Source: Nostoc sp. FACHB-973
GTDB taxonomy: Bacteria > Cyanobacteriota > Cyanobacteriia > Cyanobacteriales > Nostocaceae
Direction: 5' to 3'
NCBI RefSeq assembly: GCF_014698115.1
Contig: NZ_JACJSJ010000010.1
Coordinates: forward strand, 1-64,000
Length of the DNA: 64,000 nucleotides
The translations under genes and the position numbers were made by a program. This document shows positions 3,509-64,000 of this stretch, piece by piece (position 1 is the first letter of the stretch; the number at the start of each line of letters is the position of its first letter). The notes below the pieces were generated by a model. It was not told the origin of the DNA, ran no database searches, and saw nothing but the letters and a program-made list of their open reading frames with translations.

Positions 3509-3513
3509 AACTT

Positions 3514-5113: not shown

Positions 5114-5141
5114 ATTTATTAGCTAAAACACTCAAATGTTT

Positions 5142-5336: not shown

Positions 5337-5344
5337 AAGCCTCT

Positions 5345-5384: not shown

Positions 5385-5396
5385 AAACGATAACCC

Positions 5397-6074: not shown

Positions 6075-6245
6075 TAAAACCAGCAAAATGGGAAAATTTA
6101 CTTCATTACTGCCACAAAATATAAATCCTGAAATACAGGATTATGTGTAAAGCTGCTTTATCTACCAGTGCGACGTGACGATTACAATCAAATCGCTCTG
6201 ACAGGTATGCCAACAGGCTAAAAACCGACTAGGGAGAAGTGACAA

Positions 6246-37238: not shown

Positions 37239-39395
37239 CTATTTTTGTAAAGGTATGGCTTTTATTACTGGAATAAGACAACTTGATTGTCCATAGTAAG
37301 TAAGCGTAACGCAACGTTTAGCGCGAGTAGCAGCTACATGGATTAAAGAACGCTCTGAATTAATTAGTGAATTATATGCTGCTTTATCAGCAGTATTAGA
37401 TAATGCAGACTTTAACGGTAAAATACCATCATTGATACTGGCTAACACCACATAGTCAAATTGCAAACCCTTTACTCGGTGCATTGTTGCAATGCGAACA
37501 CCTTGTTCAGACAAATTATCAGGCTGAGTACGTTTAATTTCTCGCACTTTGACATTAAGATTTTCAAGAGCAGAAGCATATTGTTTTACCAAAGAATTAG
37601 TGCGAACCACAATACAAACATTGCTTAAAGGAGTACCACTACTTTCTAGCTGCTGAAGATACGTGCTGATGAAATTCATTTCATCCTCGAAACTAGAAAA
37701 TCCTTTAACTACAGGTTGATCTCCATGAAGTAAAGAACGGTATCCTTTAAGGTCATCTTGTTCCCCGTCTAAGTCATCGAAAGTAATGCCATCCAGCACC
37801 ATTGTTGCCCACTTGCGGGTTTCATCGGTTGTACGGTAGTTAATTCTTAATTTATGGGAGCGACCGCGAATATCAATACCGCAGCGACTAAGAACAACTT
37901 TTCGACCATAAATGCGTTGGTGAGGGTCGCCAACTATAAAAATATCATTGCCGTCATTTTTCGGTGGAACTATTGCCCTAATTAGTGAGAAAACTGCATC
38001 GCTCATATCTTGAGCTTCATCTACGATTACAGCCTTGAAAGGTAAAGTTTCTCCTGGTTTATTTTGTAATAAACTACAAGCGTCACGCATTGCATCTTCA
38101 GCTTCTTTCCAACCTTTTTGTTGGAGTAATGAACGATATTCTTCAAAAACAACCCAAATAGCAGCTCGCTCGGCTCGATTGAGTCTTGTACCGCGTCCAG
38201 TTCGGGTAACTGTTAGGTATTGCTTGAGGTTTGTTATTTTATTAGCTTGAATTACCTCACGCCATTCATCCTGATAAAAAGCAAGTGTTAACGATGGAGA
38301 TTCAGGTTTGCATTCGTAAGCTTTTTCCCAAAGTTCTGCTACTTGGTCATCGTAGACAATTTTAGTAGTAACACCTTCACTTTTTAAAAATGATGTTACC
38401 CAGGCATCAATATTCTCAACTCGTATGCGACGCATGGTTTCAGGAGAGCAAATCTTACGTAAGTTAGCTTCGATATCAACTGCAAGGTTACGGGTAAAGG
38501 TTGTAAATAAAATGCGATCGCCTGAATTTGTAAATCGATTTTCTGCCAGCCATTTAGCACGGTGCATTGCAACTACTGTTTTCCCTGTTCCTGCACCACC
38601 TAATACTCGTACTGGCCCTTTCCAGTCGCGTTCAACCAAACGTCTTTGGCTGGGGTGGAGAAATACGCGCCATTTTTCTAAAGGTGCAGCTAGAATTTCT
38701 AACAATTCTGTTTCATTTTCAACAACTCGGAAGCGGCGTTTACTGTCGTCTTTTTCTAAAGCTGCATCAATATTATCTGTGTCGATAGTCTGTTCGCGGT
38801 TTTTATCTTGTGCTGTGAGAGTTTCTTCGATAGAGTATCCAGCACCCAACATTAGTAAAGCATCAGCCGCTTCTTCGGGCAACTTAGACACTAATTGATC
38901 GATATCTTCGTCAGTTACAACTGCACGAACTGCACCTAATAATTCATCGGGAATGCCAAGCCGCAATAAATATTTATCTGGTATGCTATCAAATCGACCA
39001 GGAATTTGTGGTATTCTACGGCTAGAAATTTCTGCTTCAATTGCGCTTGCTTCCTCAATATCTATAATTTGTAATGCACCTGATTCTGGGTTAATTTTAC
39101 AAACTCGGCGTTGTGCCCAGCTATAAGCATCATCATGGTTATCAACCCATAAAAGAATATAAGTATTACCCTTATCAGGTTTAAAAACAATAGCTCTATA
39201 TGACAAGTCAATGCGAACAGATTTTAGTCGAGAGTCTCTGCCGTTAATTGACTCATAATTAATACCAGAACTGGTTGGATCTTTCTTAAATTTTTCAACA
39301 AATACATTTACTTTACCTTGAATTTGCCGAGGTATCCTACTAAAAGCATCGAGAAAATCTGCGGATATTGCTAATTTTGGTTGATGGTTTAACAT
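37239..39395 (-). CDS. UvrD-type SF1 helicase with RelE/ParE-like N-terminus
   Basis: A 718-residue protein. Residues about 1-105 look like a RelE/ParE toxin fold (LAISADFLDAFSRIPRQIQG, then SYRAIVFKPDKGNTYILLWV). A helical linker follows, then a UvrD/Rep helicase core: Walker A VLGGAGTGKTVVA (266-273), DEAQD (459-463), DPHQRIYGR, motif V TMHRVKGLQFDYVVLA and motif VI ATRAKRC. RelE-UvrD fusions of this kind occur elsewhere in bacteria. It is the last gene of the SNF2-methylase-YprA unit, 35 bp after the YprA-type gene. It may unwind or process DNA after nuclease action; whether the RelE-like part cuts RNA or only binds is unknown. Confidence 0.85.
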   Translation of the reverse strand: MLNHQPKLAISADFLDAFSRIPRQIQGKVNVFVEKFKKDPTSSGINYESINGRDSRLKSVRIDLSYRAIVFKPDKGNTYILLWVDNHDDAYSWAQRRVCKINPESGALQIIDIEEASAIEAEISSRRIPQIPGRFDSIPDKYLLRLGIPDELLGAVRAVVTDEDIDQLVSKLPEEAADALLMLGAGYSIEETLTAQDKNREQTIDTDNIDAALEKDDSKRRFRVVENETELLEILAAPLEKWRVFLHPSQRRLVERDWKGPVRVLGGAGTGKTVVAMHRAKWLAENRFTNSGDRILFTTFTRNLAVDIEANLRKICSPETMRRIRVENIDAWVTSFLKSEGVTTKIVYDDQVAELWEKAYECKPESPSLTLAFYQDEWREVIQANKITNLKQYLTVTRTGRGTRLNRAERAAIWVVFEEYRSLLQQKGWKEAEDAMRDACSLLQNKPGETLPFKAVIVDEAQDMSDAVFSLIRAIVPPKNDGNDIFIVGDPHQRIYGRKVVLSRCGIDIRGRSHKLRINYRTTDETRKWATMVLDGITFDDLDGEQDDLKGYRSLLHGDQPVVKGFSSFEDEMNFISTYLQQLESSGTPLSNVCIVVRTNSLVKQYASALENLNVKVREIKRTQPDNLSEQGVRIATMHRVKGLQFDYVVLASINDGILPLKSALSNTADKAAYNSLINSERSLIHVAATRAKRCVTLTYYGQSSCLIPVIKAIPLQK

Positions 39396-39430
39396 ATAAT
39401 TACTTCCTTGGATAATCTCCTATCGCATTA

Positions 39431-42400
39431 TTAATTAATATATTGGCTATAAAAAGCTTCTGGATCAGCCATAACTTCACTAATAGTGGCTACCTGCCAT
39501 CCTGCTGCTTTAAATAGCATTAAAGTATTATCTGCTGCTATCAAAACAGCACATTTACGTTTTGTCCAAGCTAACTCAGCCTCAGCAATTACAACTTCAT
39601 TACTATCCATTAACTCATAACCAACTTCTGGTAAATCCCAGTTATGTTCTTGCATATAATGCAACAAGTCTAATGTTGTCTCATCAAAAACTAGTTCCTC
39701 TAGTTTTTGCCAAGCTGCTACATTATGTTTAACCGTCGGTTGAGATTGAGCCTGGTTTGCTTTAGGAGGTACTAATGCAGAATTTAAACCATTGTCATTA
39801 CCTTGAGCCGTCACAACATAACTATGGTCAAGAAATTGTAATATATTGAAATAACGTAGAACTCCTATCCACGATTTTTGCAATTCTTTTTCATTTTCTA
39901 TTGCTTTATCATCTAAATAAATAGTGATAAACGAGCCAGCACTATCTAGAGTTGAATGACGTTTACCATCTACTGAGATGTAAATTTCGACTAAGTTTTT
40001 ATCACCATTTATTGCCTCAGAAACTAAACCTAATATTTTTCCAGTTTCTATGGGTTTAAATGCATCTACAACTGAAGAGTTGGTTTTCTTTAATACTGCA
40101 TTAACCCAAGATAGACGAGCATCCTGCTGGCTGAAACGAGCATTATCAAATTGAGCAGTAGTTCTCATCAGAGCAAAATTTTTCCATAAATCTCTATCTG
40201 GATTAACCAGGAAATTAACCAGCCAAATAAAACTGTTTTTTTGAGCAATCAGTCGTAATTCTCCGCATTTATATTTTTCATAAAATGTACCTTCTTTAGC
40301 CTTAAATTGCTGACTAGCACCCAGTTCTAAAAGGTCAACATAAACATCATTTTGCTTGTTTGAGAACTGCGATTCTACATCAGTCCAAGTTAAAGACCAA
40401 ACGTGATACTGGTTGCTCTTAGCAATTGCCATACGTTGAAGAAAATCTTCAGCAATGCGGTGAGCATGGTATTGCCAACCATCGGTAAATATGACTATCG
40501 GTTTAATTGCTGTTGTATTTTTAGCAGGATAAAAAACAAAATCTGCTCTGCTATTAACTTCAATTCCTTCGTTTCTGCCAAGTTCTACCTGTGGTTCAAC
40601 GTTCCAATCTTGATTAGCAATTCTAATAAAATAACCAGCTTTACCATTAACTATTTCTTTACGAACGATTGTTGGTTCGTTATTATGGCGGTAGCGTCTT
40701 AGTGCTTCAATAAAACGTAATTCAAGAATACTATCAAATAAAGCATTAAGCTTAACTTGAGAAAGTCCTCCTTGAGTTTCAGTTAATTGCAGACGACGGT
40801 TAACAATCATATTAAGTAAATCAATCGCTGTCTTGCGGCTGGTTTGATCTCGGTCAAAACTATTACGATAACCGTACAAGCAGTTATAACAGCCATCATT
40901 GCAATCGCAAGCACGTAAAATAACTAATGCTTGTTCAAACACAGAGAAAAAGTTATTTGGATCTCGTAGTAATTCGCGTAGATATCCCGTTCCACCGGGA
41001 ATAGTGTCGTATAAAAATAGAAAAGGTTTGCGTAGCAAGCTAGGTGTATTTTCTTGCGGTTCGTGACTAATAAGGGTTCTGAGGTGGTCTACTTTACCCT
41101 TAAAGTATTGTTTTAACCCTAGTTGCAAGGCTGCAATAAATGAATGTAATTTTTTATCAGAAGTTAAAGTATCTACAGGTAGCAATATCCTGATTGCTTC
41201 CGATTCAAATTGTCTAAACAAGTACAAGATATCAGTAAAATCATTTTCATTGCTATTTTCACGTCTAGAACAAGTCAAGGCGTGTTCTGGTTTTTCTGGA
41301 TCAGTTTGAACTTTACCGCAATGGCGACAAATTTGAAAACCAGGACGGGGACGGTTAATTCCAGCAACTTCAAAATTTTCAGATTGGGAATTACCCTCTC
41401 CAAAATTGACTTCTCGAAAGGTGACTCGTGAAATAAATTCAAAACCAAAGGGAAATTCATCATCTTTAATTACAAAAGTCTTTTCCCGTGCTTCTGGTTC
41501 AAAATCTACCAGCATTTGTTGAGTGAAAAAGGCTGGTTGGCGCTCATCTTTGTCATCACCAATACGGCTTTCTCTGGCGTTGGTAGTTGCTATAACTTGG
41601 CGTAAGCGAATCATTTTGCGCTTACGTCCTGCATCTGACCACATTCTGTCCCCACAGCGTGGACAAGCAGGTTCTTTAGCTGCATCTAAAATAGTTAGAG
41701 CAGCATAGGAACAGTTTCTACACAAGCGCCACTCTTCAATTTGGGAAATATTTAAGTCGATTTGGTCAATTTTGACGCGGTTTCCCTCGGCATAAAATAC
41801 ACCAGAAGGAGCAAGTTCCCGCAAGGCGATCGCACCAGGACGTTCGTACTCAAAGGTAAAGGTTTCGTATTTGCCAGATGCACCATCTCCTTTGATATTC
41901 TTTTGTCGCCAAATAATTGACTTGAGCATTACACCTGGTTCGGGGAAAGCATAATTAGGTAGCAACCCTTCATCAGTAAAGAAGTTAAGGGTATTTTTAT
42001 CGCTGATATTTTTCACTAACTCCATCAACCCCCCTCGTTCGCGGTGGAGTTCCGCTAGTTCTTCTTCGTGATTTTGACTCTTAGCAGCTTTTTCCTTATC
42101 TTTAATACGTCGCCGTAAGGTATCACTTTGGTTTTTTAAGCGTCGGCGTTCTTCCACTACTTCCTGCAAGCGGTTGACAATACGCCAACGCAATCCCCCT
42201 TCATCGTTTTCGCCTTTCTCAATAAATATTCTTAATTGTTCGGCGCTGCGGCTGGATATTTGATTTTGGAAGAGTTCGAGAAAATCTTGCAGTAGTTCTA
42301 ACTGTTGATTTTCAATAAAATTTAGCCATGTATAAGGAAAGCGAGTTAAATCACGTTGCTGGACGCTATCTAAAACAGTGCCAAATCGTTCGGGTAGTTG

Positions 42401-45400
42401 GTCTGGGGTGATACCTTGGGATACCCAACGGTCGAGACAGTAAGCAGTGAGTTGGCGTTGTAAAATCGCTGAAGCATCGAGGTACGAACCGGGAGTATCT
42501 ACCCCACCTGCAATCATTAACATGGGGTCAGCCCAGAAATATAAATCGTGGGGAGTACCGTTAGCGATCGCGGCGATAAAAGCATTCCCATCTCGACGAC
42601 CTGCACGACCAATACGCTGTTGGTAATTTGCTTGGGCTGGAGGAACGGAACACAATAAAACAGAAGAAAGCGTACCAATATCAATCCCCATTTCCAGCGT
42701 TGAAGTAGCAGACAGAAGATTGGGGTCGTAACGGTGGCGACCTGTGATAAAGCGATTTTCTAATTCTTCGCGGACATCCCTTTCTAATAATCCGGTGTGT
42801 TCTCTGGCAAATATCCGCCACACTCGACCTTTAGAATATAAGTGGCGGTAAAAATCGCGGGTTTTTCGTTCCGATGGTTGATATTTACCCGTACACTTCG
42901 GACGCATACAAGGTGTATCTGTCCATAACGTCAATTCTTGTGGAGAAGCGGTAATGCTGTGTCCGCATTTATCGCATTCAAGGTGATGTGCTGTAATATC
43001 CAAATACAATGCTGTTTGTTCGATACCCCAGACTTTTGCGCCGTTACGTGTTTCCCTGACTCCAAAAATCTCATGAGCCACCAGTTGATTTAAAACTAGG
43101 TTGTAAAGGTTTTCTACCTGGGCGACAATCAGTGGAGTGTAGCTAGAAAACAATTTAAAAGCCCAATTTTCACACCAAGTTACTTTTCCTGATGGTCGAA
43201 CTAAGGCTTCAAAACGAGGAAAATTACCATTTTGGACAAAGTAAACGGGTGCAAGTGAGGATGGGCCAAATCCAGGCATAAATAAGGGTTGCTGCAACCG
43301 GAAGGTTTGACCACCACTTTCAATATAATTTTCTGTTACTGAATGCAAAATACCACCCTGTAGCCGCAGATGGTAAATTAACCCCAACAGAAAACGGTGC
43401 AGGGTTTGCTGATCGAGATTTTCTAGTCCACCAATTTCGTTGCGAATTCGTTCGAGTAAGTTTAAGCAGGCAGAGGTGAGTAAATTACTATCAAGGTAAA
43501 CTGCACAGGTGTCAGTGCGTTCTAATGAAGCACCCAAATTTGTCCGCAAGCCAATTTCTGCAACTACTTCCCAATCAAGTCGTTTATTAATCAGGTCAAC
43601 AAGGCTGGGTTTTGCTGTTCCTGCTTGTTGTAATTCTTCCCATTCCCGCAGCCATTCCAAATCTGAAGGCATAAAGGTGGCAATATAATCGCCATCGCCA
43701 CCAATTTCATTACGCCAATATTGAGAAAAGTCAGCCCGAATATCCGCTAAATTCCATCCTTTGGCTTTATTATCAAGATGCTGGCGTAAAGCACTTCTTA
43801 AGGTTGTGCGGAAGGTACGAGTTTCAAAAAAGCCTGCACGGTGCGCTGCATCTTGTACGGAGTCAGAAAAAGTAATTAGTTTGCGATCGTCATTGTAAGC
43901 TGATGAGAATAATGTACCAATTGCGGCACTAGCTAAACTCGCAGCGCGAGAACCAAGAATTGCTAAACCATCTTTACTACCGCAGAAGGGGCAATCATGG
44001 TTAGAAATACGCCGGGGATTGCCATTTTTAGTTTTTATCGTGCGAACGATCGCATCTTGGTCTGGTTCAATAACTGAAATAAATTCTTCGCTGGCGCACT
44101 TAGAACAACGATGAGCATCTGTGCGGTTAAGGGTTAGACATTCTTTGCAAAGCTTCCAAGATAACCAACCTCTATCATTATCTGGATTGCGATGGGGGAA
44201 AATGTAGGTAATTAATGGGTCGTTTGCGAAGTACGCTTTATAAAAGTCCCGTAGGTCACAAGCTATTTTATGGTTTGTTACTTGTTGCCTTAATCCTCCC
44301 CATCCCGTACTACCGCAGTCTCGACAGTGTATCACTGGCAGAACACGCTCTTTTTCTTCTGATGCTTGGTCATCAGCAAATACTAATTCGGGTTGCTTCT
44401 CTACAGTTCCCACCATGCGGCGCAGTTCTCGCAGCCAGAATTGCAGACGAATATTCACCCAAGGGACAAGTGCAGTGTGCAATTGGCGGCGGGCGATCGC
44501 ACACAAGGCAATTAAACTATCAAATAAAGCAGCTTGATAAATTGGGTCATCGCTATCTGGTAAGCGCATTTTCCGGCTGAGTTTTTGCCAAAGTTCAGGT
44601 AGGGCGATCGCTCCTTGGTCTAAAACTTTGAGTAAGTTGTGGACTATGGGCAGAGATTTCAAGCGATCGCCTAATTCAACTCGCCACTCATTATTATTAA
44701 ATTCTTCGGTAATTGCTGCTTCAAACCATAGCTGATGTTGAGCGCAGATATATTCCTCGATAGTTTGGTAGTTGGCAGCTTTGAGAATTTCTAATTTATC
44801 GGGTTCGGGAATGGGGAGAGGATTAATGTAAGCATCAAAGAGAAATTCTCCACAAGTTAGCCTATCTTCTTCAACTAGAGCATTTTGGTCGAAGGGTTCG
44901 TCAAAAACAGTAGTTGCATAATTCAACATATCCCCTTTATTACCACTACCACCCAAGGTAGCAGAAGTCCCGACACAAGCTAAATGACGTTCGGGAGTTT
45001 GCAATCTAGCTTTGAGACGGCGGATTAAACAAGCCAAATCTGTTCCTTGTGCGCCATCAAAGGTGTGAATTTCATCAACTACCAAATAACGCAGAGTTTC
45101 TGGTACATTTCCTGCCCATAATGGTTGGTCGCCAGGACGGATCAGCAGGTAGTCGAGCATTTTGTAGTTAGTCAACAAAATGTCTGGGGGGCATTGGCGC
45201 AGAATATTTTTGTCAGTGATGATATGGTCTTCACCCATCATTGCTTTTGGATCTCGTTCCGACTCGCCCACAAATAACCCAGCAGTTACCTTACCTTTTA
45301 ATTTTGAGTTGTGCCAGATGAGACTTGCTAACCGCTTTGCTTGGTCGGTAGCAAGGGCGTTCATGGGGTAAATTAGCAGTGCTTTAATACCCGGTTCGCC

Positions 45401-53453: not shown

Positions 53454-53919
53454 ATCAGCCTAGTCTTTTTAACCTAAACGTGGAAGTGATTGTACATCAC
53501 AGTCCAATGCTTCTTGCTCTGCTTGCTATCCTGAATAAGAAATTTCCAGAAGGGCAAATTTCTTTGGTGCATAAGATTGAGAGAAGTATTGATTAAGTAA
53601 TATTATAGGCGTAACCGTTAAAGATACTACAAAAACTGTACGCAATACTTTATAACTAGAAAATCTGTAATTTTTCGTAGCACAAGATTTACAAATCTAC
53701 GTGAAATACAACCAATGATCTGAGAACCTTCAGCAAGCAGGTAATGTGATCTTGCGGCTTTCATTTTGGGGAATACTAACAACGTAAAGCAAAACGGTTG
53801 CATCCACTTTTGGAAGAAACATAATTATTTAGTGCCAGAAACTCAACTATATGGGTTGTCTAAAAAATCTATCTGCCAAAACCAGATGCTCCCAGCACAA
53901 CTTCCAAGGTGTAGCGAAA
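53454..53919. other. Promoter region between defence units
   Basis: About 470 bp. It carries the dyad at 53486-53500 near the SNF2 gene and an 8-bp inverted repeat AGAAATTT/AAATTTCT at 53538-53563 with a 10-bp spacer. Both could be regulator sites for the second defence unit. The right part precedes the plus-strand gene at 53920. Confidence 0.4.
53486..53500 (-). promoter_or_regulatory. Dyad 33 bp upstream of the SNF2 gene
   Basis: GTGAT and ATCAC flank five bases. On the minus strand TACAAT overlaps the dyad and could be a -10 element. A repressor bound there would block the defence unit's promoter. No -35 was identified with confidence. Confidence 0.35.
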
Positions 53920-54558
53920 ATGCCTTACTCTTTAGACAGTTGGAAACAGCGTATTGCATCACGTTCTGATTTAACCGGACATCTCATACATTTGACTAGA
54001 GAAGCAAATACAAATGGTAAAGAATTTAGCTCTCTTGAGGTTTTGATGAAAATTCTTTTAGAAGAGTGCCTCAACGGTAGTTCAACAAAATCAGGGTTTA
54101 TATGTGGAAATAGAAAAGCTGTTTGCTTCCAAGATACACCACTATATCAATTAGCACAAAATATTTATTCAGACCAAGAGTATCGAAAGCAAAATCCTAA
54201 TGCCAAGCTACGTTATGTAGGGATAGGGTTAATGTTTCCAAAAACATATATATATAATAATGGTGGGAGACCTGTAATTTATGATAATACCGAAGATGCC
54301 AAAGCTTATCTACCTTATAAAGAATGGTGGCGAATTGTTAAATTGGAACTTAGTGATGAGACTAATATTATCGATTGGACTCATGAGCGAGAATGGCGTT
54401 TACCAGATAATTTTAATTTTCAGTTAGAAGAAGCCATTGTGGTTTTACCTAATACAAATACATACAAAAATTTTATTACCCTATGTCGTTCAATAAATCA
54501 AGTTGACATTTTGACAAAAATTAAAGGGATAGTTACGCTAAATGCCGTATTTTTTTAG
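53920..54558 (+). CDS. Hypothetical protein (DUF2971/ART-like pattern), 212 aa
   Basis: It begins LDSWKQRIASRSDLTGHLIH and continues with SLEVLMKILLEE, GFICGNRKAVCFQDTPLYQL, RYVGIGLMFPK, PVIYDN, and finally IDWTHEREWRLP. The pattern of a conserved Cys-Phe-x-D/E-x-P and a terminal EREWR recalls DUF2971-type and ADP-ribosyltransferase-like folds often seen in defence islands. This is a guess. ATG 53920 is preferred over 53851 because AAGGTG lies just upstream. It is the only plus-strand gene between the two minus-strand defence units and may be an accessory toxin or effector. Confidence 0.55.
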   Translation: MPYSLDSWKQRIASRSDLTGHLIHLTREANTNGKEFSSLEVLMKILLEECLNGSSTKSGFICGNRKAVCFQDTPLYQLAQNIYSDQEYRKQNPNAKLRYVGIGLMFPKTYIYNNGGRPVIYDNTEDAKAYLPYKEWWRIVKLELSDETNIIDWTHEREWRLPDNFNFQLEEAIVVLPNTNTYKNFITLCRSINQVDILTKIKGIVTLNAVFF

Positions 54559-54625
54559 TTTTATTCATCGCATATTTTAGATGGCTATTTATTACACCAA
54601 TGAAAAAGTCATCAACATTAATAAA

Positions 54626-56800
54626 CTAACTAATTCCAAAATTACTATTACGGCATCTATTACATCTTAATAACGTTTCACCCTGCCCAGTACAAGCTCC
54701 ACAGTGAGGGCAAATGATGCGAATCCTTCCCGACTCTGGTGTTTCATCAGAACTGCACAACGCCGAAAGTAAGTCACGCCCTAGCAGTTGCTCTCTAGCC
54801 ATCGCTTTCACAGCATAGGAACATTTACTTTCTGTTTTAGTTTGCCGCTTCATCTTAATAGGTTCTAGCTTTGCTGTCTTACCACCACAATTCTTACAGG
54901 TTCGCCAACTCCATTTGGCTTGACAGTTAGGACAATCACCCTCATTTTCCTTAAACTGCAAACACACATTACTCAGGTCATAACTGCACACTGGACAATA
55001 TGAAGGATGGATGCCATAAACCAAATCGACTCCCAAGGTATGAAAGCGAAATAATCTCTGGAAACGTTCAAGAGTGCTTAAATCAAGTGGACTAGCTGGC
55101 ATCATACCAACGCTACGAACAAAAGCATTACCATCAAAAGTGGAAACAAAGCGTTTATAATCATCCGGACTCATAAAGTTTTCGCCGATATTCAGCATTT
55201 TTTGAATTAAGTCTGGCGTAACATCTTCACTTATTTCTCTATCTCTTGGATCTGTGGGATGTACTAAGACAACAAAAGTCTGCACTTGGTTGTTGCGATT
55301 TTGACGCTTGGAAGTATTTCCAATTGATGAACCTTGGGACAAACCTGCATCATAGAGAGTGTCCAAAGTCTTCTTAATTTCATCTTGATCGCCAAAAAAC
55401 GCTCGCGCTAATGGAATCAGTACCAGTCTAATGCGGGTTGGATGAGAAAACTTATGAGTATTAGTGTTAACTATCTCCCAGATCAACTCAACATTTATTT
55501 TGAAATTATCTGATTCGGGAGGCTGCACAACTGCTGTCCATGCTTCCCACTGGAGTGCTTGTTGAAAATTTAATTCTTCTGGAAAATTCTCTGGCTTCAC
55601 TTTTGCAGTTTCAAACCCAATCCAGTGCAAAGCCAAAAGTACACAGCCATGAATGTAATTAGCGTAATCTGATAACAAATCTCGCTCTTTTTCTATATTC
55701 TGCTGGTCGGGATTGCTAAAAAATCTGTCCAGCATCTCCCACAACTGGCGTAAACGCCGATAGTCTGCATCCATTTGCAAAATGTTAGTTGGTTTTAAAG
55801 GAGATATCACATCTGGTTTGCTAGATAAACTCTTATAAAGTACTGAGTCTAAACAGCTACTGGTGTCAGAATATAGGCGGCTAATTTGATCTTTTAGTGC
55901 TTGTGCTTGCTCGTATTGCTGCAAATAGTCTTGTACGGTATCTAAATTTTGCCAAAGTGCTTTCAATCGCTCTTCCCGAAAGCGATTATATTGGTATTCT
56001 GTAAATAAGTTTTCATGCAGAGTTTGTGTTTGGTAGTAGGCGCGGTCTATTTCCCGGAGTCTTTGTTCCATCCAGCGCAGCAACCTTCGCACTAGAGTAG
56101 CAACCACGCGATTTTCATAGAGGTCAAGGGTTTCTTCTGGCACTTCGCTTCTAATTTGTGCCGGAGTAATGCGCGTTGCAGTGCGAGATTGCCATAATTC
56201 TGGTCGAGATGCTAAATGCTCAATTGCATCAGGCGGAATACGTCTTGCTCTGTCTATGGGCATAACTCGACGCTCTACTATTAAACTGCGTCGGGGTTTG
56301 CCACATACTCTCAGTAAAGATGGTAAAACTTCTGCGATCGCCTCATCTAGTTCCCTGACATTTTTGTTGCTAAGGGAATCACGAATAGTACCAGGAGAGA
56401 AAAACGGCAACTTTAGTAATTGCTCTGTTGATATAGTTGGTTCTAGCCCTTTTGCTTGGTCGGCGAACAGTGCCAAAGCCACTTGCATTGTCTCATCTAA
56501 TTGTGTTCGCAATGGCACTTCAAATTTATACCGCCCAATACTTCCAGAACCTGTACAGGCGATACGTACCGAACAGCACCCAAAAGTATCAACTGTTATG
56601 GGTAAATTACAGCTTGTTTCATTTGTACGGATGTAAGTATTATCGTTATTATCATTGAGCGTAATTTCAGTTTCGCCATCAGCAGGGGTGAAATTAATCT
56701 GTATACGGTAGTCATCTATACTCTCTAAACGGCGGCGTTCTCCCGATTGCAATGGTTCTAGGTTGCCTGTCCAACGATTGAGTAAAAAAAGATGTGCCAT
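54626..56800 (-). CDS. DUF2357 (McrC-side) protein with C-terminal zinc ribbons
   Basis: A 724-residue protein. The middle has the DUF2357 signature DLYENRVVATLVRRLLRW (near residue 225), typical of proteins that pair with McrB-like NTPases. The C-terminus (about 600-724) has several zinc-ribbon-like CxxC pairs (CPVC, CPNC, CKNC, CPHC, CNRC). I see no clear PD-(D/E)XK motif such as McrC carries; it may be degenerate, or cutting may fall to another subunit. It starts 3 bp after the McrB-like gene, so the two should form one complex. The protein probably links McrB's NTPase motor to target DNA or RNA. Confidence 0.75.
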   Translation of the reverse strand: MAHLFLLNRWTGNLEPLQSGERRRLESIDDYRIQINFTPADGETEITLNDNNDNTYIRTNETSCNLPITVDTFGCCSVRIACTGSGSIGRYKFEVPLRTQLDETMQVALALFADQAKGLEPTISTEQLLKLPFFSPGTIRDSLSNKNVRELDEAIAEVLPSLLRVCGKPRRSLIVERRVMPIDRARRIPPDAIEHLASRPELWQSRTATRITPAQIRSEVPEETLDLYENRVVATLVRRLLRWMEQRLREIDRAYYQTQTLHENLFTEYQYNRFREERLKALWQNLDTVQDYLQQYEQAQALKDQISRLYSDTSSCLDSVLYKSLSSKPDVISPLKPTNILQMDADYRRLRQLWEMLDRFFSNPDQQNIEKERDLLSDYANYIHGCVLLALHWIGFETAKVKPENFPEELNFQQALQWEAWTAVVQPPESDNFKINVELIWEIVNTNTHKFSHPTRIRLVLIPLARAFFGDQDEIKKTLDTLYDAGLSQGSSIGNTSKRQNRNNQVQTFVVLVHPTDPRDREISEDVTPDLIQKMLNIGENFMSPDDYKRFVSTFDGNAFVRSVGMMPASPLDLSTLERFQRLFRFHTLGVDLVYGIHPSYCPVCSYDLSNVCLQFKENEGDCPNCQAKWSWRTCKNCGGKTAKLEPIKMKRQTKTESKCSYAVKAMAREQLLGRDLLSALCSSDETPESGRIRIICPHCGACTGQGETLLRCNRCRNSNFGIS

Positions 56801-56803
56801 AAT

Positions 56804-59194
56804 CTACCGTTTAAATTTGTTAATCTCACGTTCCAAAAGTTTTAAGGAAATCGCAGCACTTCCTAGTCGCGGGTTATCAGTAAAACTTACCTCAATAATG
56901 TCTCGTACTTCCTGTAAACCAGAACGGACATTTGGATCAGTACGGTTTTGTACCTGCCAAAGCAGCTTTCTGGCGATAAAGTGGTCTAAACCTTCCCCAA
57001 GTTTCCCACCCGTCGCAGTGTATATGGGGAGGAAGATAGAAAGTTGGTCTAACAGGCGTTGTCCGTACCCTACTTGAAAGTACTCATGCAATGCCAAACC
57101 AATAGTTCCAAGACAATTCTGTACAACGTCTTGGTCTTTTTGGCTGAAATTGGCGATCGCCTTTTGTACAGCTTGGCGAAAATCTGATATTTTTAGATTT
57201 GCTGGTTGTGTGGTATCAAAACTTTCTGGTTCAAAAGGTTCATCTATTTGCAAAACTTGAGCGCGATCGTAAACTTTACGGGTAATCTCATATGTAGATT
57301 CGTCCGTATTTGCGGTGCCAACAAACCAGACATTATCAGGGATTGGTAGCTGGACTGCACCGTTTTTCAATCTAATTCCTTTGGGAAGTTGACCTCCAGT
57401 AGGGTCGTGGTTTAGTAGTTCAATTTCTCTATCTTCTGGACGACCTTCCATAATTGAAAGTAAATCAGCGAAATAGTATTCCACCCGTGACAGGTTCATT
57501 TCATCCAAAACTATGAAATAAGGATAATTGCGGTAACGATTTGTGCCTGCTTCGTAGATTGCCCTAGAAAACTGAGACTCATTAAAAACGCGGAAGAAAG
57601 AGTTATAAGAACCGAGCAAATCAACTTTATCTCGCCAACTAGATTGAACTTCAATTCGGGCAAATTTACCACCAATTGCATAAGCAAAATATTCTGGCAG
57701 ACTAGTTTTACCAGTGCCACTCTGACCTTGAATAATAATTAGTCTAGAAGCTGCCATTGAGGCAATAAAAGCCTGAATTGTATGTTTATCATAATAATGA
57801 GCGAAATTTGAGGTTTTAGCTTCTCCCATTTCTAACTCTTGACGGCTTGGTAAACTACCCATCCAAGCACGACTTCTAGCAGCCAATTCATTTAGATCAT
57901 TAACGGCAACACCATCAGGTTTGTTAATAATATTTTCATTTTCTCTATCCATAGAAGCAAAATTACCAAACGCTTGTATTTGACTGGTTTGCAATTGACC
58001 AAGCATCCGTTTAAGTTCTTCTATTTGTTCACTCAAATACTGATTTAATAACTTTAGAGTATCTCTCTCTTTGCGAAGCTGTTCTGTCTCCATCCTTTCC
58101 GAATGATGCTGGCGGCGGATACGCTCTAAGTCATCAATCCTCGCTTGTAAATCACGATACTTAGCTTCAAAATCAATTGCAGCTTCGGCACGTCTGCGAA
58201 GTTCTGCTAACTCTATTTCTGATGGATATTCCTCAAATAATTTTTCATATTCTCTAATCTTATTCTCTAGCAGTTTGTTATCTGCTAAAACTTTCGCTGG
58301 TGAACCTGATATATTTAAGAGCATATTTTTATTGCTCTCTAATTCTCCCCTCAGCCGATGATTTTGCTCTTGAACTAATTGAATTTGGTGTTCAATAGAT
58401 TCCTTTTCTTTTATCAACCTATTAATTGCTTCTTCTGAACAAGCATTTTCACGTTGGCTTAATTCTTGTTCCTTCTGTTGGAGTTTTTTCTTTTGCAAAG
58501 CTAACCAATTGCTTTCATCTTCTAAGTCTTCTTCTCGGCGTTCAATTTGCTTAATTTGTCTTGACAGCTTGTTATCTTCTTCCTCAAGATACCTTTCTTT
58601 ATCGTCAAGTACCTTACGGAAATTTATCAATTCTTCTTCTTTCGTCTGGATTTCCTTAATTGTTTCCTCTCTTGCTCTTTGCCTATGTTCGTTGGCTAGA
58701 GTTTCTGCCTGTTCAATAATTCTATCTGCTTGATTTTGAACATCAATCTTTAATTTTTGAGCTTCTTTAATAATTTTTTCAGCTTCCGTTTGTGCGGCAC
58801 TCAATTTTTTATCAACTTCCTTTTGTGCTGCCTCTATAATTTGTTGACGTTCTGCTATAATTTCCTGTTCTTTTTCTGTTAACCATTCCTTACGAGCCTT
58901 AGCTTCTAAATCTTTAAAGCCATTAATAGCTTGCACTTTCTGTTGGGCTAATTCCTGTTCTCTTATGGCAATCTCCGCTTCTTTGGCTGCGGTTATTTCT
59001 TTTTGTTTCTCTAACTGAAATTCTAGTTCATTGATTTTATCTTGGAGTTTATGAATATCCTGGGACTGTGCATTAACTGTTGACACATTTTGAGGAGTCA
59101 CTGCAACAGCAGCAAGATTTTGAGTATTAGTTTGAGGAGTACTTGGTTGCTGACGGTTTTGATTTGTATTTATATTTCTAGTTTTTCTACCCAT
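56804..59194 (-). CDS. Coiled-coil McrB-like AAA+ NTPase
   Basis: A 796-residue protein. A Gln/Asn-rich start is followed by a long coiled coil (about 45-410; for example KEITAAKEAEIAIREQELAQ). The AAA+ domain has Walker A GQSGTGKTS (about 488-496), the McrB-type Walker B DEMNLSRVEYYFADLL (about 563-578) and NTDESTYEITRKVYDRA (about 622-638). This resembles McrB, the GTP-driven motor of type IV restriction, here with a large coiled-coil arm as in coiled-coil nuclease tandem (CoCoNuT-like) systems. The downstream DUF2357 gene is its expected partner. The upstream gene ends next to its start, so all are co-transcribed. Confidence 0.85.
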   Translation of the reverse strand: MGRKTRNINTNQNRQQPSTPQTNTQNLAAVAVTPQNVSTVNAQSQDIHKLQDKINELEFQLEKQKEITAAKEAEIAIREQELAQQKVQAINGFKDLEAKARKEWLTEKEQEIIAERQQIIEAAQKEVDKKLSAAQTEAEKIIKEAQKLKIDVQNQADRIIEQAETLANEHRQRAREETIKEIQTKEEELINFRKVLDDKERYLEEEDNKLSRQIKQIERREEDLEDESNWLALQKKKLQQKEQELSQRENACSEEAINRLIKEKESIEHQIQLVQEQNHRLRGELESNKNMLLNISGSPAKVLADNKLLENKIREYEKLFEEYPSEIELAELRRRAEAAIDFEAKYRDLQARIDDLERIRRQHHSERMETEQLRKERDTLKLLNQYLSEQIEELKRMLGQLQTSQIQAFGNFASMDRENENIINKPDGVAVNDLNELAARSRAWMGSLPSRQELEMGEAKTSNFAHYYDKHTIQAFIASMAASRLIIIQGQSGTGKTSLPEYFAYAIGGKFARIEVQSSWRDKVDLLGSYNSFFRVFNESQFSRAIYEAGTNRYRNYPYFIVLDEMNLSRVEYYFADLLSIMEGRPEDREIELLNHDPTGGQLPKGIRLKNGAVQLPIPDNVWFVGTANTDESTYEITRKVYDRAQVLQIDEPFEPESFDTTQPANLKISDFRQAVQKAIANFSQKDQDVVQNCLGTIGLALHEYFQVGYGQRLLDQLSIFLPIYTATGGKLGEGLDHFIARKLLWQVQNRTDPNVRSGLQEVRDIIEVSFTDNPRLGSAAISLKLLEREINKFKR

Positions 59195-60811
59195 TTATAC
59201 CTCCTTTGAGAATTGGCTATTTGTTAATCGCCATGCTTCAATAACTAAACGTACAATTTGATATGTTTTTGTTACTAAATCCTCAACGACAATGCTTGGT
59301 TCCTTATGACTTATACCAGCATGAGCACCAATTGTGTTGCGGATATGGGCAATTTTTTCTATGTCTGCTAAAAAATCTAAATGTTTTTTAAGTAAATATT
59401 CTAAAATACAACGATGTAAGCTGTTACGCCGACTTGCTGATAGTAAAAATGTCCCAACATAGGGTCGTAAAGAGTCTTTACCACCATCAAGAACATTACG
59501 GATTGCTCCTAACTTTGTAAATAAAATCCGCTCTGGTATTTCGCTTCCACCGCAGGCAACAACTGTATCTTTTAAACATTGTTGCAATGTATCCCTACTT
59601 TTATATGGTTCCCAAATATTTGTAGGAATTGTATCTAGTTGCAGTAAAGTAAACATTAACTGCTCTAAAACCCTTTGCGATCGCGTAATACTTGTGTCCG
59701 TCTCATCGAAACCACGTTCTAGAAGGATACGCGATTGTTCTAAGCGTTCCAATTCTTGCCAAACTTGCTGCCAAATTTTGTCAGGCACAGAGCCGACTTC
59801 AAATATTATTTTGTCGTAGGCTTCCCTTGCTAAACCGATCGGCTCAATTTCTCTGGGTTGCTTGCGTTTCCAAGCTTCACGACTCTTGGACTGCAAATGC
59901 TCTACAATTTTCTTACCTTCTTCACACTGGGATGAGGCAAAGTTCAATAGGCGTACCCAACGAAAACCATCTGGAAGGCCAAAAGGACAGCGTAGAGAAA
60001 ATTGACCATCGGATGTTCCCTCAATAATGCAGGAAACTAGCAAATAAAACTGTTGCGGTCGTTTACTTAACAGACGCACACCAAAATTTTCTGTTTGCTC
60101 TACCTTTGCGTTATTGCTTTGCGTCAAAATATCTGCTTTGCTGATTTCAGTAAAACCATAGGCATCAGAAACAGCATTATCAGCCTGAATTAGCTTTAAC
60201 AGGCGACGTTGAGTTTTGATTGCCGATGTTACATCAGCAGCGTTGGGTGTAGGTAGTGTTTGCCGTATCCACGGAAGTTGAAAAGCTTGGGAGACATCTG
60301 AACGACTAGAGTCAGCATAGCGTAGGCTTTTAGTGTAAAACCAACTTAGAAGTTCACCGGCTGTTGCGTCCTGAAAAATCCAGCCATATTCTGTTTTCTC
60401 TTCATCCTCTTTTCCATCTTGCTGAAGAATTTTCTCTCCTTTATCAGTCAAGCGAGCTTTTCTGTCAATATAGCCCTGATTTTCTAGCTGTAACATGACG
60501 TTAAACAGAAAATCTTTGTGCTGTCCTAACATTTGTGCTTGATCCTGGTGGCGCGTTACCCCAGCATGGGCTAGCCGTAGTGAAGTTAGCTGCAAAAAGT
60601 CTAATTTGCGCTCTGATACTTGTGGCGCAGCGATTCTCCAACCATAAACAGGCCATAATATGTTTTGCTGTTGGTCAGTGAGCGCCTGCTGTTGGGCAAA
60701 CAAAAGAATATTTATAGGTTTTGCATCTGATACTTGATTGCTTGGTGACAGTATCAGTTCGTCAGGTAAAGGTTCATCATCAAACAGCAATTCATCATCA
60801 AAATCAGACAT
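59195..60811 (-). CDS. Unknown defence-operon protein with C-terminal HEPN-like motif
   Basis: About 538 residues from ATG 60811 (which overlaps the upstream gene's end by 8 bp). It has a very acidic N-terminus (SDFDDELLFDDEPLPDELIL). The middle is mixed and not recognised. The C-terminal helical domain contains HIRNTIGAHAG: R491-N-x4-H497, the RxxxxxH form of the HEPN RNase motif. If real, it would make this the RNA-cutting effector of the array. The upstream gene is a UPF1-like helicase and the downstream one McrB-like. Alternatively the helical C-terminus is only structural. Confidence 0.55.
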   Translation of the reverse strand: MSDFDDELLFDDEPLPDELILSPSNQVSDAKPINILLFAQQQALTDQQQNILWPVYGWRIAAPQVSERKLDFLQLTSLRLAHAGVTRHQDQAQMLGQHKDFLFNVMLQLENQGYIDRKARLTDKGEKILQQDGKEDEEKTEYGWIFQDATAGELLSWFYTKSLRYADSSRSDVSQAFQLPWIRQTLPTPNAADVTSAIKTQRRLLKLIQADNAVSDAYGFTEISKADILTQSNNAKVEQTENFGVRLLSKRPQQFYLLVSCIIEGTSDGQFSLRCPFGLPDGFRWVRLLNFASSQCEEGKKIVEHLQSKSREAWKRKQPREIEPIGLAREAYDKIIFEVGSVPDKIWQQVWQELERLEQSRILLERGFDETDTSITRSQRVLEQLMFTLLQLDTIPTNIWEPYKSRDTLQQCLKDTVVACGGSEIPERILFTKLGAIRNVLDGGKDSLRPYVGTFLLSASRRNSLHRCILEYLLKKHLDFLADIEKIAHIRNTIGAHAGISHKEPSIVVEDLVTKTYQIVRLVIEAWRLTNSQFSKEV

Positions 60812-63800
60812 CTGCATAGCCCTGCTCACTTCGACACAAATCAACAAAAGCTTTTAAGCTGCTAGAGTAAGGTGTGCCATCAGGACGCAAAGACGCAACA
60901 CAAGCAGAGTCTCCTACTCCAATTAGTACGCAACGGGCGCGGCTAAATGCAACACATAGCCGATTTGGGAGTGCTGTGAAACCAAGACGCTTTTCAATAG
61001 ATTCCTCCTGATTACTGCGAACGGTAGAAAGGTAAACTACATCATATTCCCGTCCTTGGAAAGCATCGACCGTTCCCACCCGCACCCGGCGCTGTAAATG
61101 TTCTGGCAAGCCGTGGCGAAGGTCTGCGATCGCTTCTTTGATAGCTTCTTCCTGGGCTGAGTAAAATGCAATCACCCCAACCATTCCCGTTGGTTTACTT
61201 GGGTCGAAATTAGGGTATTTTTCCGCTATGGAGGGAAGTACACGACGCAGTTCGCACATAATCCGGTCAACTTCCGCAGCACGCTGCCAGCTACGATTGC
61301 CAGCACGAGTTTCACCCCCAATATTTTTAGGCACATCTAACCAAGCAATGGGTTTTAGATTATACTGACCTGTATAATTCGGTCGTGATTCTGGCTTGAC
61401 AAAACTAGAATTAAGGGGGCTTTCAGAATAAAAGCGATCGCTGACAAACTGCCCAATCGTCGGGTGCATTCGGAACTGATCCGTTAGCTGGGCAGTCCGC
61501 TCAATACCATCGATAGCGGTTTGTTTGGGCAGTGATTCCCAAAGTCTTTCAAATAAACTTTTACCATATATATCCTTTAGCTTTTCATCCCCCTCCTTAG
61601 CCAAACTCTGCTCAATTTCCCTTTCTAAAACGTGAGGAAGTTGTTTGTGGTCGCCAACGAGAATAATCCGCCGTCCCTTCACCATTGGTATTAATAAATC
61701 AAGGGGATTTGCCCTGGCGGCTTCATCCACCACAACTAAGTTAAAAGTCCGGTTAGCCATTCCCAAATACTTTGAGTCTGCTTGCCCGCAACTGGTAGCT
61801 TGAATTGGTGAATATTTTCCAATCACTTCTCTGACATGGGCTGGATCTTCTTCTAAATAACGGACAAATAACTCCAGTGCTTCTTGCTGTCCTTCTACAC
61901 TTTGGTCGCGGGCTAATTCAACTTCCTCGATCGCAGCTAGCAGACATTGCTCAATTTCTCGATCGGATACATCTTGTTCGGTAATCGGGGCGGCAAAGGG
62001 AATCTCCAGTAGTTGTTGGCGAATGCCAATACAAGCGTTTTGCAAAGAGATCCAGGGTTCCCGATAAGCTGTATTTTCTTCTGTCCAAGCAGCAGCAACT
62101 TCCACAGCTTCAATAATATCGGGTGAAAGATTATCAAGATAAGGCTCCAAAAAGCGTCTTAATCTCCGAGCCTGTCGAGTGCCATCATCTTTAAAATTTT
62201 CTTCTGCTGTACACTGCTGATTTAATCTGCGTTCTAGTTCCTCCCTATCTTCCGCATCTTCAATCACTGGCTTGGGCTGAGTCTGAACTGTGGGAACAGT
62301 AGCCGCAAGACGGTCTAATTCGGCTATTCGCTGGGCCGATAAAAACTGTTCTGCCGCATTGCGAAAAGCTAAAATAATTTCACGAGTTCCTTCCCTTCCT
62401 CCTGCTGAAGTGCGCCAATGGGAGAGGCTACCTTTGAGTTGGTCGATGAGGGTGCGAGTTGCTTTATGTTCGTTCTTTAAGTGCGATCGCACAACCTTAA
62501 TAACTTGATCGCCCCACGCTTGAATTACCTCGGCTCCTCGATCTTCACCTTTTTTGCCTCCAAGCCGATCAACAGGAAGTCCTGAAAGACTCATGCCTGC
62601 GATCGCATTATCCACTGCCTCATGCTGCAAACTCGTGACCAAAACTGTTTCTAACCCATCATTCGTATTACGCCCTTCATTAAGCATGGTCAGTAATGCC
62701 TGAATCACCCTTGTCTTCCCTGTTCCTGGCGGCCCCTGAATGACAGCAATATCTGGTGTAGACAGTGCAATGCGTAACGCCTTTTCCTGATCTGGCGTTG
62801 GCCCGGTTTCGCCAAACATCTTGCGTGCTGGTTTTGTAATTATCTTTTTTTGGCGAGGAATTGCCCTCTCAAAGGTTTTAGCCTCAAAAATCAAGCCTAA
62901 ATAAGGCAAGCCAGCGCGTGCAGATTCCAAGGTCTTGAGCGCATTATCACGTTTTTTGAGTTTAGACTCATCCAAAGCCATAGAGGGAGAAATTATTCCA
63001 TTACTGGGTGGCTCGTTATCGCTTTCCCAAACAACTGTGAGGTGCTTATTTTTCTGGTCATAATCCACTGCTAATCCTTCTGGTTTACCTGCATCACTTT
63101 GTATTATTACTGGCAGTCCATCACCAGAAATATGCTCAACCCAAGGCTTAAGGTTGGCTGATGCTTCTAAGTTAAAAATTAGTAAAGTTTTACTACTATC
63201 ATCAGATTTTAGTTTTGGTCTCCCTTGATAGCGTAAAGGTGGCAAAGATCCAAAACGCTCTTCTAAAATTCTTCCTTCTTCTGAGTTGTAATGCTTCCAA
63301 CTGGCAATCCAACTATTATTTTCTCTAACAGCTTTGTCAAGAGCTGCAATTGCTGCCGAATATATAGTACTAGCGGCTGTTTTGTCGCAGAACTCTAAAG
63401 ATTGGCGCATTAAATATATAGGGCGGCGATCAAGATTTTGCCCACGATGCTTAACAATTCGTTTTGCTAGCAATTGTTGCTTATCATCAGTAAATGTCAA
63501 ATCAAGAGCGAGATCAGCCCCAACCACAGTAAATCCCCGTTGCAAATCTGGCTCATTAGCACCGGAAGTAACAAACCAATAGCCAAATTTATCAAGCAAA
63601 AACTCCCGCTCCAAACAGCGTTTCGCATCTTTAAACGTCTTTACTTTAGACCACTGGCGCATCACAACTGTCTCGATAAATTCGTCAGTCAGCGCCACTT
63701 GCAACTGTACGGGAATTTCAGCCTCTGGGAAAGTAAAAGCTTGTCCTTTAATTTCAACTTCCTGGGCTGCTGCTTTCATAATGCAACCAAGTATGCTGAC

Positions 63801-64000
63801 TTGCCCTGATTGCAATTCCCACATTAATACTTTGGCATTAGCAGAGTTTGGCTTAAGTTCGATTACCAAATCGGAATCATTACTGTTGGGAGCTTCAAAG
63901 CCAAGAATACCTTCATCAATTCCTTGTAATTCAACTATTTTATCTTCCCAATCTGACTGTGCCGCACCTCTTTGCAGCAAAAAACGTCCGCTTACCTCTT
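60804..64000 (-). CDS. UPF1/DNA2-like SF1 helicase (5' end outside window)
   Basis: More than 1058 residues are visible. The frame stays open through the window edge; the first possible TTG at 63980 is not a convincing start, so the gene is partial. Motifs: Walker A VIQGPPGTGKTRVI (about residue 415 from 63980), LVVVDEAARANPLD, GDHKQLPHV, TVDAFQGREYDVVYLS and NRLCVAFSRARC. This is the SF1 class that moves 5'-3' on DNA or RNA. The stretch at about 550-750 is helical and split from the core. It is the first visible gene of the first defence unit, which continues into the HEPN-motif gene. Confidence 0.85.
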   Translation of the reverse strand, partial: EVSGRFLLQRGAAQSDWEDKIVELQGIDEGILGFEAPNSNDSDLVIELKPNSANAKVLMWELQSGQVSILGCIMKAAAQEVEIKGQAFTFPEAEIPVQLQVALTDEFIETVVMRQWSKVKTFKDAKRCLEREFLLDKFGYWFVTSGANEPDLQRGFTVVGADLALDLTFTDDKQQLLAKRIVKHRGQNLDRRPIYLMRQSLEFCDKTAASTIYSAAIAALDKAVRENNSWIASWKHYNSEEGRILEERFGSLPPLRYQGRPKLKSDDSSKTLLIFNLEASANLKPWVEHISGDGLPVIIQSDAGKPEGLAVDYDQKNKHLTVVWESDNEPPSNGIISPSMALDESKLKKRDNALKTLESARAGLPYLGLIFEAKTFERAIPRQKKIITKPARKMFGETGPTPDQEKALRIALSTPDIAVIQGPPGTGKTRVIQALLTMLNEGRNTNDGLETVLVTSLQHEAVDNAIAGMSLSGLPVDRLGGKKGEDRGAEVIQAWGDQVIKVVRSHLKNEHKATRTLIDQLKGSLSHWRTSAGGREGTREIILAFRNAAEQFLSAQRIAELDRLAATVPTVQTQPKPVIEDAEDREELERRLNQQCTAEENFKDDGTRQARRLRRFLEPYLDNLSPDIIEAVEVAAAWTEENTAYREPWISLQNACIGIRQQLLEIPFAAPITEQDVSDREIEQCLLAAIEEVELARDQSVEGQQEALELFVRYLEEDPAHVREVIGKYSPIQATSCGQADSKYLGMANRTFNLVVVDEAARANPLDLLIPMVKGRRIILVGDHKQLPHVLEREIEQSLAKEGDEKLKDIYGKSLFERLWESLPKQTAIDGIERTAQLTDQFRMHPTIGQFVSDRFYSESPLNSSFVKPESRPNYTGQYNLKPIAWLDVPKNIGGETRAGNRSWQRAAEVDRIMCELRRVLPSIAEKYPNFDPSKPTGMVGVIAFYSAQEEAIKEAIADLRHGLPEHLQRRVRVGTVDAFQGREYDVVYLSTVRSNQEESIEKRLGFTALPNRLCVAFSRARCVLIGVGDSACVASLRPDGTPYSSSLKAFVDLCRSEQGYADV

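Follow-up and report, generated by a model that had tools for sequence, protein, structure and literature searches.

The first 64 kb of contig NZ_JACJSJ010000010.1 (142,464 bases) of Nostoc sp. FACHB-973 (genome of 9.52 Mb in 263 contigs), here called the window, carry a dense array of putative defense genes, which raises the question of whether these genes form one hybrid machine or separate systems lying side by side. Positions 37239 to 64000 hold eight long minus-strand open reading frames (ORFs) in two units, with a plus-strand gene (53851 to 54558) between them. A sequence-only reading had proposed a single hybrid system, with a core resembling class 1 DISARM joined to a McrB/DUF2357 module. 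Here, we report that the array very probably consists of two complete, separable anti-phage systems, ARMADA Type II and CoCoNuT Type II, in tandem on a conjugative-plasmid-like contig. The contig is likely a plasmid and looks conjugative: it encodes a MobA/VirD2-type relaxase and an FtsK-type gene, and positions 27431 to 69987 match (94 to 97%) plasmid AP018224 of Nostoc linckia NIES-25, which is conjugative according to PLSDB.

The unit from 53453 to 37239 is an ARMADA Type II operon, ArmA-ArmB-ArmC-ArmD, with the following features.

50586..53453, minus strand: ArmA, SNF2/RapA (BrxHII/DrmD-like) helicase, 955 aa (Pfam, PADLOC; K134 and D234 are the published K136 and D236).
45754..50589, minus strand: ArmB, PglX/DrmMI-like N6-adenine methyltransferase, 1611 aa (Pfam, PADLOC; N965 [NPPW] and G595 are the published N971 and G605).
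39431..45757, minus strand: ArmC, YprA-type helicase with fused MZB/DUF1998, 2108 aa (Pfam, PADLOC, tree; K103 and D228 are the published K110 and D234).
37239..39395, minus strand: ArmD, GajB-like UvrD helicase with an N-terminal RelE-like domain, 718 aa (Pfam, PADLOC; K272 and D459 are the published K266 and D454).
37205..53712, minus strand: ARMADA Type II cassette, the block common to the Aulosira NIES-50 plasmid (blastn, 93.4%).

ARMADA Type II was described in 2025 from Escherichia coli NCTC 12900 (PMC12458937, a preprint) with the order BrxHII-like helicase, PglX-like methyltransferase, YprA helicase, and GajB-like helicase, which is also the order of the Nostoc unit. Pfam matched UvrD, DEAD plus MZB/DUF1998, Eco57I/N6-methyltransferase, and SNF2 domains. 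PADLOC (2023) matched ArmA to DrmD (347 bits), ArmC to DruE (378 bits), and ArmB to DrmMI (181 bits) and, as its best model, to a Type IIG enzyme (976 bits); an ARMADA label was absent among the matches listed, so the labels that were given (DrmD, DruE, Type IIG, GajB) were not used as a classification. All eight positions at which the E. coli study introduced mutations carry the identical residue in the window proteins, mapped through an E. coli plasmid copy whose residues agree at the published numbers. The Nostoc operon thus shares with that of NCTC 12900 its four genes, their order, the RelE-GajB fusion, and the YprA clade; it differs in its cyanobacterial host, in protein sequence (40 to 53% identity to the E. 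coli plasmid copy), in the allele of its ArmB block, and in lying beside a CoCoNuT rather than Druantia III/Zorya II. A guess that the array might belong to a newly proposed YprA-family system was borne out, that system being ARMADA (PMC12458937). The word armada in PMC12904381 and PMC13192584 probably denotes the same system.

Gene order varies among related operons. The preprint calls the Type II order strict (PMC12458937), and permuted orders conflict with this: Cylindrospermopsis curvispora (L031 6102 to 22775) has ArmC-ArmD-ArmA-ArmB, and two Pseudomonadales metagenome-assembled genomes (L097 and L099) have ArmD upstream of ArmA. In NIES-25, a 185-aa ORF (L007 18395 to 18952), MoxR/RavA-ATPase-like by eye, lies between armB and armC; it is absent from the window and Aulosira cassettes. 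Among IMG/VR homologues of ArmD (L132 to L135), L132 has an adjacent ArmC, L133 and L134 have none in the 10 kb upstream of the ArmD homologue, and the stretch of L135 ends early.

Would the unit be better described as a class 1 DISARM with substitutions, DrmA and DrmB having fused? DISARM class 1 shares with it a DrmD-like SNF2 helicase and a DrmMI-like methylase, as shown by profile matches of ArmA to DrmD and of ArmB to DrmMI. The YprA helicase, however, places the operon elsewhere. In a tree of 21 YprA proteins, with rows labelled by gene context, window ArmC and ten Type II rows form one clade (11 of 11 rows; support 97/99; present in 94% of the 200 bootstrap replicates); the four Type I and three DISARM rows lie outside it. 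A first tree had contained a long-branch paralogue from the same genome (own_L003), which was removed for the final one; in the latter, the DISARM and paralogue long branches meet, and the ARMADA II grouping is independent of that join. A quick tree with two added Pseudanabaena rows gave the grouping 100% support (Shimodaira-Hasegawa-like approximate likelihood ratio test). The best PADLOC matches of ArmC are to DruE, a RelE-UvrD gene is present, and there is no separate DrmB, because the 2108-aa ArmC holds both helicase and DUF1998 parts (MZB at residues 1542 to 1627, 56.4 bits, cut-off 24.2). The DrmA+DrmB-like fusion that had been noticed is therefore real, and reading the unit as a class 1 DISARM variant is extremely improbable. 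Nor did Pfam give any match to the phospholipase D (PLD) family of the DrmC nuclease among the 32 distinct proteins scanned from the window and its upstream stretch, smaller ORFs left out. As to DISARM itself, the FACHB-973 genome may also hold one; L003 (contig C87) encodes a DUF1998 protein which we take to resemble DISARM DrmB.

Two smaller regions of ArmC and ArmD bear on how the operon may act.

40148..40690, minus strand: ArmC nuclease region, with conserved R-x-D, D-G-x3-H, and D-x3-R (11 invariant columns in 7 homologues; alignment of 11).
39066..39395, minus strand: RelE-like domain of ArmD (AlphaFold2 model and Foldseek).

The R-x-D, DG, and H columns of the former are conserved throughout both homologue sets, 7 of 7 and 11 of 11 (the fold model is weak), which is consistent with the suggestion that a nuclease stands in place of DrmC; the ArmC C-terminal nuclease is reported as Vsr-type and predicted active (PMC12458937). 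For ArmD residues 1 to 240, the AlphaFold2 model (pLDDT 81.6) has a RelE-like fold, as had been supposed: the top Foldseek row is Thermus thermophilus RelE (E = 2.7e-4), and the titles of 17 among the 20 best rows name RelE, RelJK, YoeB, or YafQ; a pneumococcal toxin-antitoxin complex, an H. pylori toxin, and an H. pylori hypothetical protein make up the remainder. ArmD is also required in E. coli (PMC12458937).

The second unit, from 64028 to 54626, is a CoCoNuT of Type II, preceded by kinase and VWA genes.

54626..56800, minus strand: CnuC, DUF2357 (McrC N-terminal) with C-terminal zinc ribbons, 724 aa (Pfam; alignment of 7).
56804..59194, minus strand: CnuB, coiled-coil McrB-like GTPase with NxD motif N629-T-D631-E632, 796 aa (Pfam; alignment).
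59195..60847, minus strand: CnuE, N-terminal part of winged helix-turn-helix (wHTH) type and one HEPN motif (Rx5H), 550 aa (wHTH match below cut-off; alignment).
60804..64000 in the window, minus strand: CnuH, UPF1-like SF1 helicase (Pfam); it extends beyond the window to an ATG at contig position 64028 (1074 aa).

A Ser/Thr kinase gene (contig 64025 to 65431) and a VWA gene (contig 65440 to 66102) follow upstream of CnuH in the same direction. Across both units, the eight ORFs were open where first placed, and Pfam and PADLOC confirmed the earlier domain calls. Three junctions overlap (ArmA/ArmB and ArmB/ArmC by 4 nt each, and CnuH/CnuE), and the rest are 0 to 35 nt apart (CnuE and CnuB abut, CnuB and CnuC are separated by 3 nt, and ArmC and ArmD by 35 nt). 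Both operons are under purifying selection, with ratios of nonsynonymous to synonymous divergence (dN/dS) against NIES-25 of 0.06 to 0.31 (ArmA, ArmC, and ArmD, 0.06 to 0.12; ArmB, 0.29; CoCoNuT, kinase, and VWA genes, 0.16 to 0.31).

Pfam gave DUF2357, AAA_5, and UPF1-type AAA_11/AAA_12 for this unit. The N, D, and E of the CnuB NxDE motif are invariant in 7 of 7 aligned proteins, and CnuC carries CPxC-type zinc-ribbon motifs besides DUF2357. A profile of CnuB residues 82 to 309 matches solved chain 4cgk (E = 3.8e-5), presumably a coiled-coil protein. The CnuE motif (Rx4-5H) occurs in 7 of 8 aligned proteins, two of them being the window and NIES-25 copies and the exception that of Deinococcus; the CnuE profile matched just two solved chains (E = 0.083), a HEPN toxin and a nucleotidyltransferase of the same length. 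Published Type II CoCoNuTs combine an NxD GTPase with a long coiled coil, a UPF1-like CnuH, a CnuE of wHTH plus one HEPN, and a CnuC with DUF2357, zinc ribbons, and an inactivated PD-(D/E)xK domain (PMC11090510, eLife 2024). The window shares the CnuH-CnuE-CnuB-CnuC order, the NxD coiled-coil GTPase, the single HEPN motif, DUF2357 with zinc ribbons, and the upstream kinase and VWA genes, with CnuB, CnuC, and CnuE being 18 to 28% identical to aligned relatives, NIES-25 excepted.

The order VWA-PP2C-kinase-CnuH-CnuE-CnuB-CnuC is found on plasmids of Pseudanabaena ABRG5-3, Deinococcus AJ005, Polaromonas, and Rhodoferax and in one further genome (G368); another (G119) has the kinase and four Cnu genes, the stretch ending upstream. 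Unlike these five relatives with PP2C, the window and NIES-25 lack it between VWA and kinase (VWA-kinase gaps of 8 and 15 nt). The TerY-P triad (VWA, PP2C, and kinase-ZnR) is frequent with CoCoNuTs and is not counted as core (PMC11090510). TerY-P units without the PP2C phosphatase occur in two CoCoNuT lineages (L005 5431 to 5440, and IMG/VR contig L154, where VWA and kinase at 1988 to 4170 are directly adjacent and leave no room for PP2C).

Other assignments of this unit were rejected. The cyanobacterial CoCoNuT type, III-C, has a PLD-type CnuE and a separate Hsp70-like CnuD (PMC11090510), and neither PLD nor Hsp70 was matched by Pfam in this operon; canonical McrBC was rejected on the CnuB NxD motif. 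PADLOC matched CnuH to MkoA (320 bits) and CnuE to MkoB (26 bits) of Mokosh, a different system with a related helicase family, to which the window unit adds the McrB/McrC-like CnuB and CnuC.

With both units named, do they work as one machine? In favor of a single system made of the ARMADA and McrB/HEPN operons, the two are adjacent and codirectional in the window and in the NIES-25 plasmid. Their distribution elsewhere points the other way. A 42-kb stretch of an Aulosira NIES-50 plasmid shares only 37205 to 53712 with positions 1 to 100000 of the contig, and nothing else of at least 150 nt (blastn); both ends of the shared block lie just outside the ARMADA operon, the upstream one at 53712, and the Aulosira operon is flanked by genes other than those of the window. 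ARMADA without CoCoNuT was seen in the stretches examined from Aulosira, Pseudanabaena 7367, and an E. coli plasmid. Across 386 genomes of the window's phylum, taken to be cyanobacterial, ArmB (E ≤ 1e-60) was found in 11 and CnuB (E ≤ 1e-30) in 3, and both only in the FACHB-973 genome; no more than two candidates were scored in each genome, and sets with the divergence seen in Pseudanabaena ABRG5-3 would escape these cut-offs. Of 579 ArmA relatives, the best 80 were kept and 38 of their loci had at least 9 kb upstream of ArmA, so these regions represent near relatives and not a random sample; none of the 38 had Cnu, VWA, or kinase matches there, and 2 had Druantia III (DruE with DruH), the reported ARMADA II partner (PMC12458937). 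ARMADA II by itself protects E. coli, and the type is described as doing so without abortive infection (PMC12458937). Klebsiella plasmid L037 (5095 to 31218) has ARMADA II adjoining Druantia III, and Tsukamurella plasmid L036 (10056 to 30932) has a helicase and DUF1998 pair directly before ARMADA II.

From the CoCoNuT side, counting the window and NIES-25 as one lineage, six of eight lineages have no ARMADA-type genes in the 5.3 to 10 kb downstream (E = 1e-8). Two have them directly downstream, window/NIES-25 and Pseudanabaena ABRG5-3, and this counts against the separable reading. On the ABRG5-3 plasmid (L163), a CoCoNuT II and a diverged ARMADA-type set, typed neither I nor II, occupy 10532 to 40302; the ARMADA-type genes share the strand of CnuC and begin 92 nt after it, in the order SNF2 (DrmD, 381 bits), VapBC, DrmMI-like methylase (282 bits), ParE/RelE-UvrD, and YprA-MZB (DruE, 428 bits). 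The island thus resembles the window in having CoCoNuT II followed by ARMADA-type genes on the same strand; it differs in its A-B-D-C order with VapBC between and in having PP2C. Its YprA row groups with no ARMADA type with firm support, and its ARMADA-type proteins are 22 to 32% identical to the window's over aligned parts. Because identity between the two lineages is this low, the joins were probably independent, and the tandem probably arose at least twice. The same plasmid also has a DruE-like gene on the opposite strand (4294 to 10542) and an MZB-only fragment upstream (40537 to 41259).

The neighborhood comparison that the sequence-only reading itself had suggested thus found related loci carrying either half alone. 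Neighborhoods, phylum counts, cassette ends, and the YprA tree refute an obligate DISARM/McrB hybrid; what survives of that claim is a similar tandem on the ABRG5-3 plasmid, and we regard a single machine as very improbable. Two published system types account for the array, and the claimed new hybrid falls away.

Two separable systems might still cooperate, with ARMADA acting as a first-line DNA restriction and CoCoNuT as a later, RNA-cutting backup. The recurrence of ARMADA-type genes behind CoCoNuT in two of eight lineages, in the same order, on the same strand, and probably through independent joins, makes this possible, and it would fit the echeloned defense proposed for superoperons of CoCoNuTs with DNA restriction systems (PMC11090510) and the synergy of ARMADA II with Druantia III in E. 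coli (PMC12458937). On the other hand, the tandem was seen neither in the remaining six lineages nor upstream of the 38 ArmA loci, no shared regulator was identified, and defense genes cluster anyway; we hold cooperation tentatively, at somewhat below an even chance. The repeated tandem is in line with the superoperons described, and ARMADA-type operons are added to the DNA restriction systems found in tandem with CoCoNuTs. In the portions of PMC12458937 and PMC11090510 consulted, no description of an ARMADA II and CoCoNuT II pairing was found.

What sets the target of ARMADA? One segment of ArmB suggests an answer.

46317..47726, minus strand: hypervariable ArmB block, residues ~955 to 1424, candidate target-recognition domain (TRD) (4 cyanobacterial cassettes, 8 enterobacterial copies; edges precise to about 300 nt).

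The cassettes of the window, NIES-25, NIES-50, and Nostoc XA010 (the last up to ArmC residue ~1710) were compared in 300-nt blocks. All comparable coding blocks outside ~46317 to 47726 were 79 to 100% identical in DNA, whereas inside it (5 blocks by 6 pairs) 29 of 30 values were 56 to 72%, and one was 82%. Starting at the NPPW motif, some 1.4 kb of armB thus differs among all four copies, and synonymous divergence (dS) from NIES-25 is 0.42 for armB against 0.06 to 0.10 for the other three ARMADA genes.

Enterobacteria show the same pattern in eight copies. Across their 28 pairs, ArmA and ArmB residues 1 to 713 are 96 to 100% identical, two or three pairs fall just below 80% at ArmB 780 to 913, and at 1113 to 1420 26 pairs are below 80% in three of five blocks and 21 and 24 in the others; six of the eight were E. 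coli chromosomes chosen for differing coverage or identity, so these shares are not population estimates. Among 5,426 E. coli genomes, 518 match the first 3.9 kb of armB, 498 of them over at least 80% of it. Six probes for the block (ArmB 1050 to 1440) matched 2, 11, 41, 17, 9, and 1 genomes at coverage of at least 80%; these are at most 81 genomes in total, as probe sets may overlap, and most E. coli copies therefore seem to carry other or mosaic alleles. More broadly, 61 ArmB proteins (ORFs of 1400 to 1900 aa with both methylase motifs; 45 kept of 94 loci scanned) gave 54 pairs at least 85% identical over residues 1 to 900, two of which involve one record present twice, and 44 of the 54 were below 75% in the block.

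In PglX of BREX, the C-terminal domain after NPPY contains the TRD and sets specificity (PMC11341690). Both proteins are N6-adenine methyltransferases in which the recognition domain or variable block follows NPPY/NPPW, and by this analogy the ArmB block is probably an exchanged TRD, which would make ARMADA a sequence-specific modification-restriction system. ArmB differs from PglX in length (1611 against 1225 residues), and the mention of phase variation for pglX (PMC11341690) contrasts with domain replacement in ArmB.

Relaxed or fast-evolving sequence would offer another account of the block. Two points weigh for it and against exchange: divergence by itself is no proof of exchange, and the block starts at about NPPW, while the PglX TRD begins ~150 residues after NPPY (PMC11341690). 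Yet coding DNA is conserved on both sides, and alleles are discrete: the CS5L probe, at megablast sensitivity, finds 17 genomes with an identity of at least 99% and no others. In one genome, a match to another allele runs at 99.8% for 857 of 1173 nt and then stops, and 155 of 1830 ArmB pairs are closer in the block than over residues 1 to 900 by more than 5 points. Relaxation thus appears unlikely, and we consider it likely that the ArmB recognition domain is exchanged as a cassette and sets ARMADA specificity, the rest of the operon staying near-identical, in cyanobacterial plasmids and enterobacteria alike. The main text of the ARMADA preprint makes no mention of an exchanged ArmB segment; "TRD," "methylation," and "swap" are absent from it, and its sole "target recognition" concerns zinc modules (PMC12458937). 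The accessible passages of a BREX survey do not contain the word armada (PMC12839542).

Exchange of this kind would explain how ARMADA tells self from nonself and predicts that each ArmB allele has one methylation motif. The block makes ARMADA's choice of foreign DNA directly testable: if it is the recognition domain, methylation motifs and phage ranges should differ between strains that are alike outside the block.

For this host, we infer methylation specificity, nuclease action, and every defense step as follows. With its exchangeable domain, ArmB would read a short DNA sequence, which it would N6-methylate on host DNA. ArmB and two motors, ArmA (SNF2) and ArmC (YprA), would engage unmethylated incoming DNA, which the putative C-terminal nuclease of ArmC would cut, with ArmD, the UvrD helicase with its RelE-like domain, as part of the action. 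CnuB-CnuC (McrBC-like) and the UPF1-like CnuH would sense abnormal nucleic acid, probably RNA, and thereby trigger CnuE as a HEPN RNase.

Other genes lie between and around the two operons.

53851..54558, plus strand: divergent 235-aa gene, DUF2971/AbiGi-like (AbiGi match below cut-off; also in Nostoc linckia NIES-25).

Kin of this gene occur on Vibrio and Paenibacillus plasmids (43 to 45%). A 2584-aa ORF at 7106 to 14860 of the window has zero Pfam matches over cut-off. Beyond the window, 6 kb upstream of the VWA gene, a CBASS-like set with a ThiF/JAB protein and a SMODS nucleotidyltransferase lies at contig positions 72070 to 75409 (L005 12070 to 15409), and CHAT-TPR proteins (L006 2576 to 8847) come after it.

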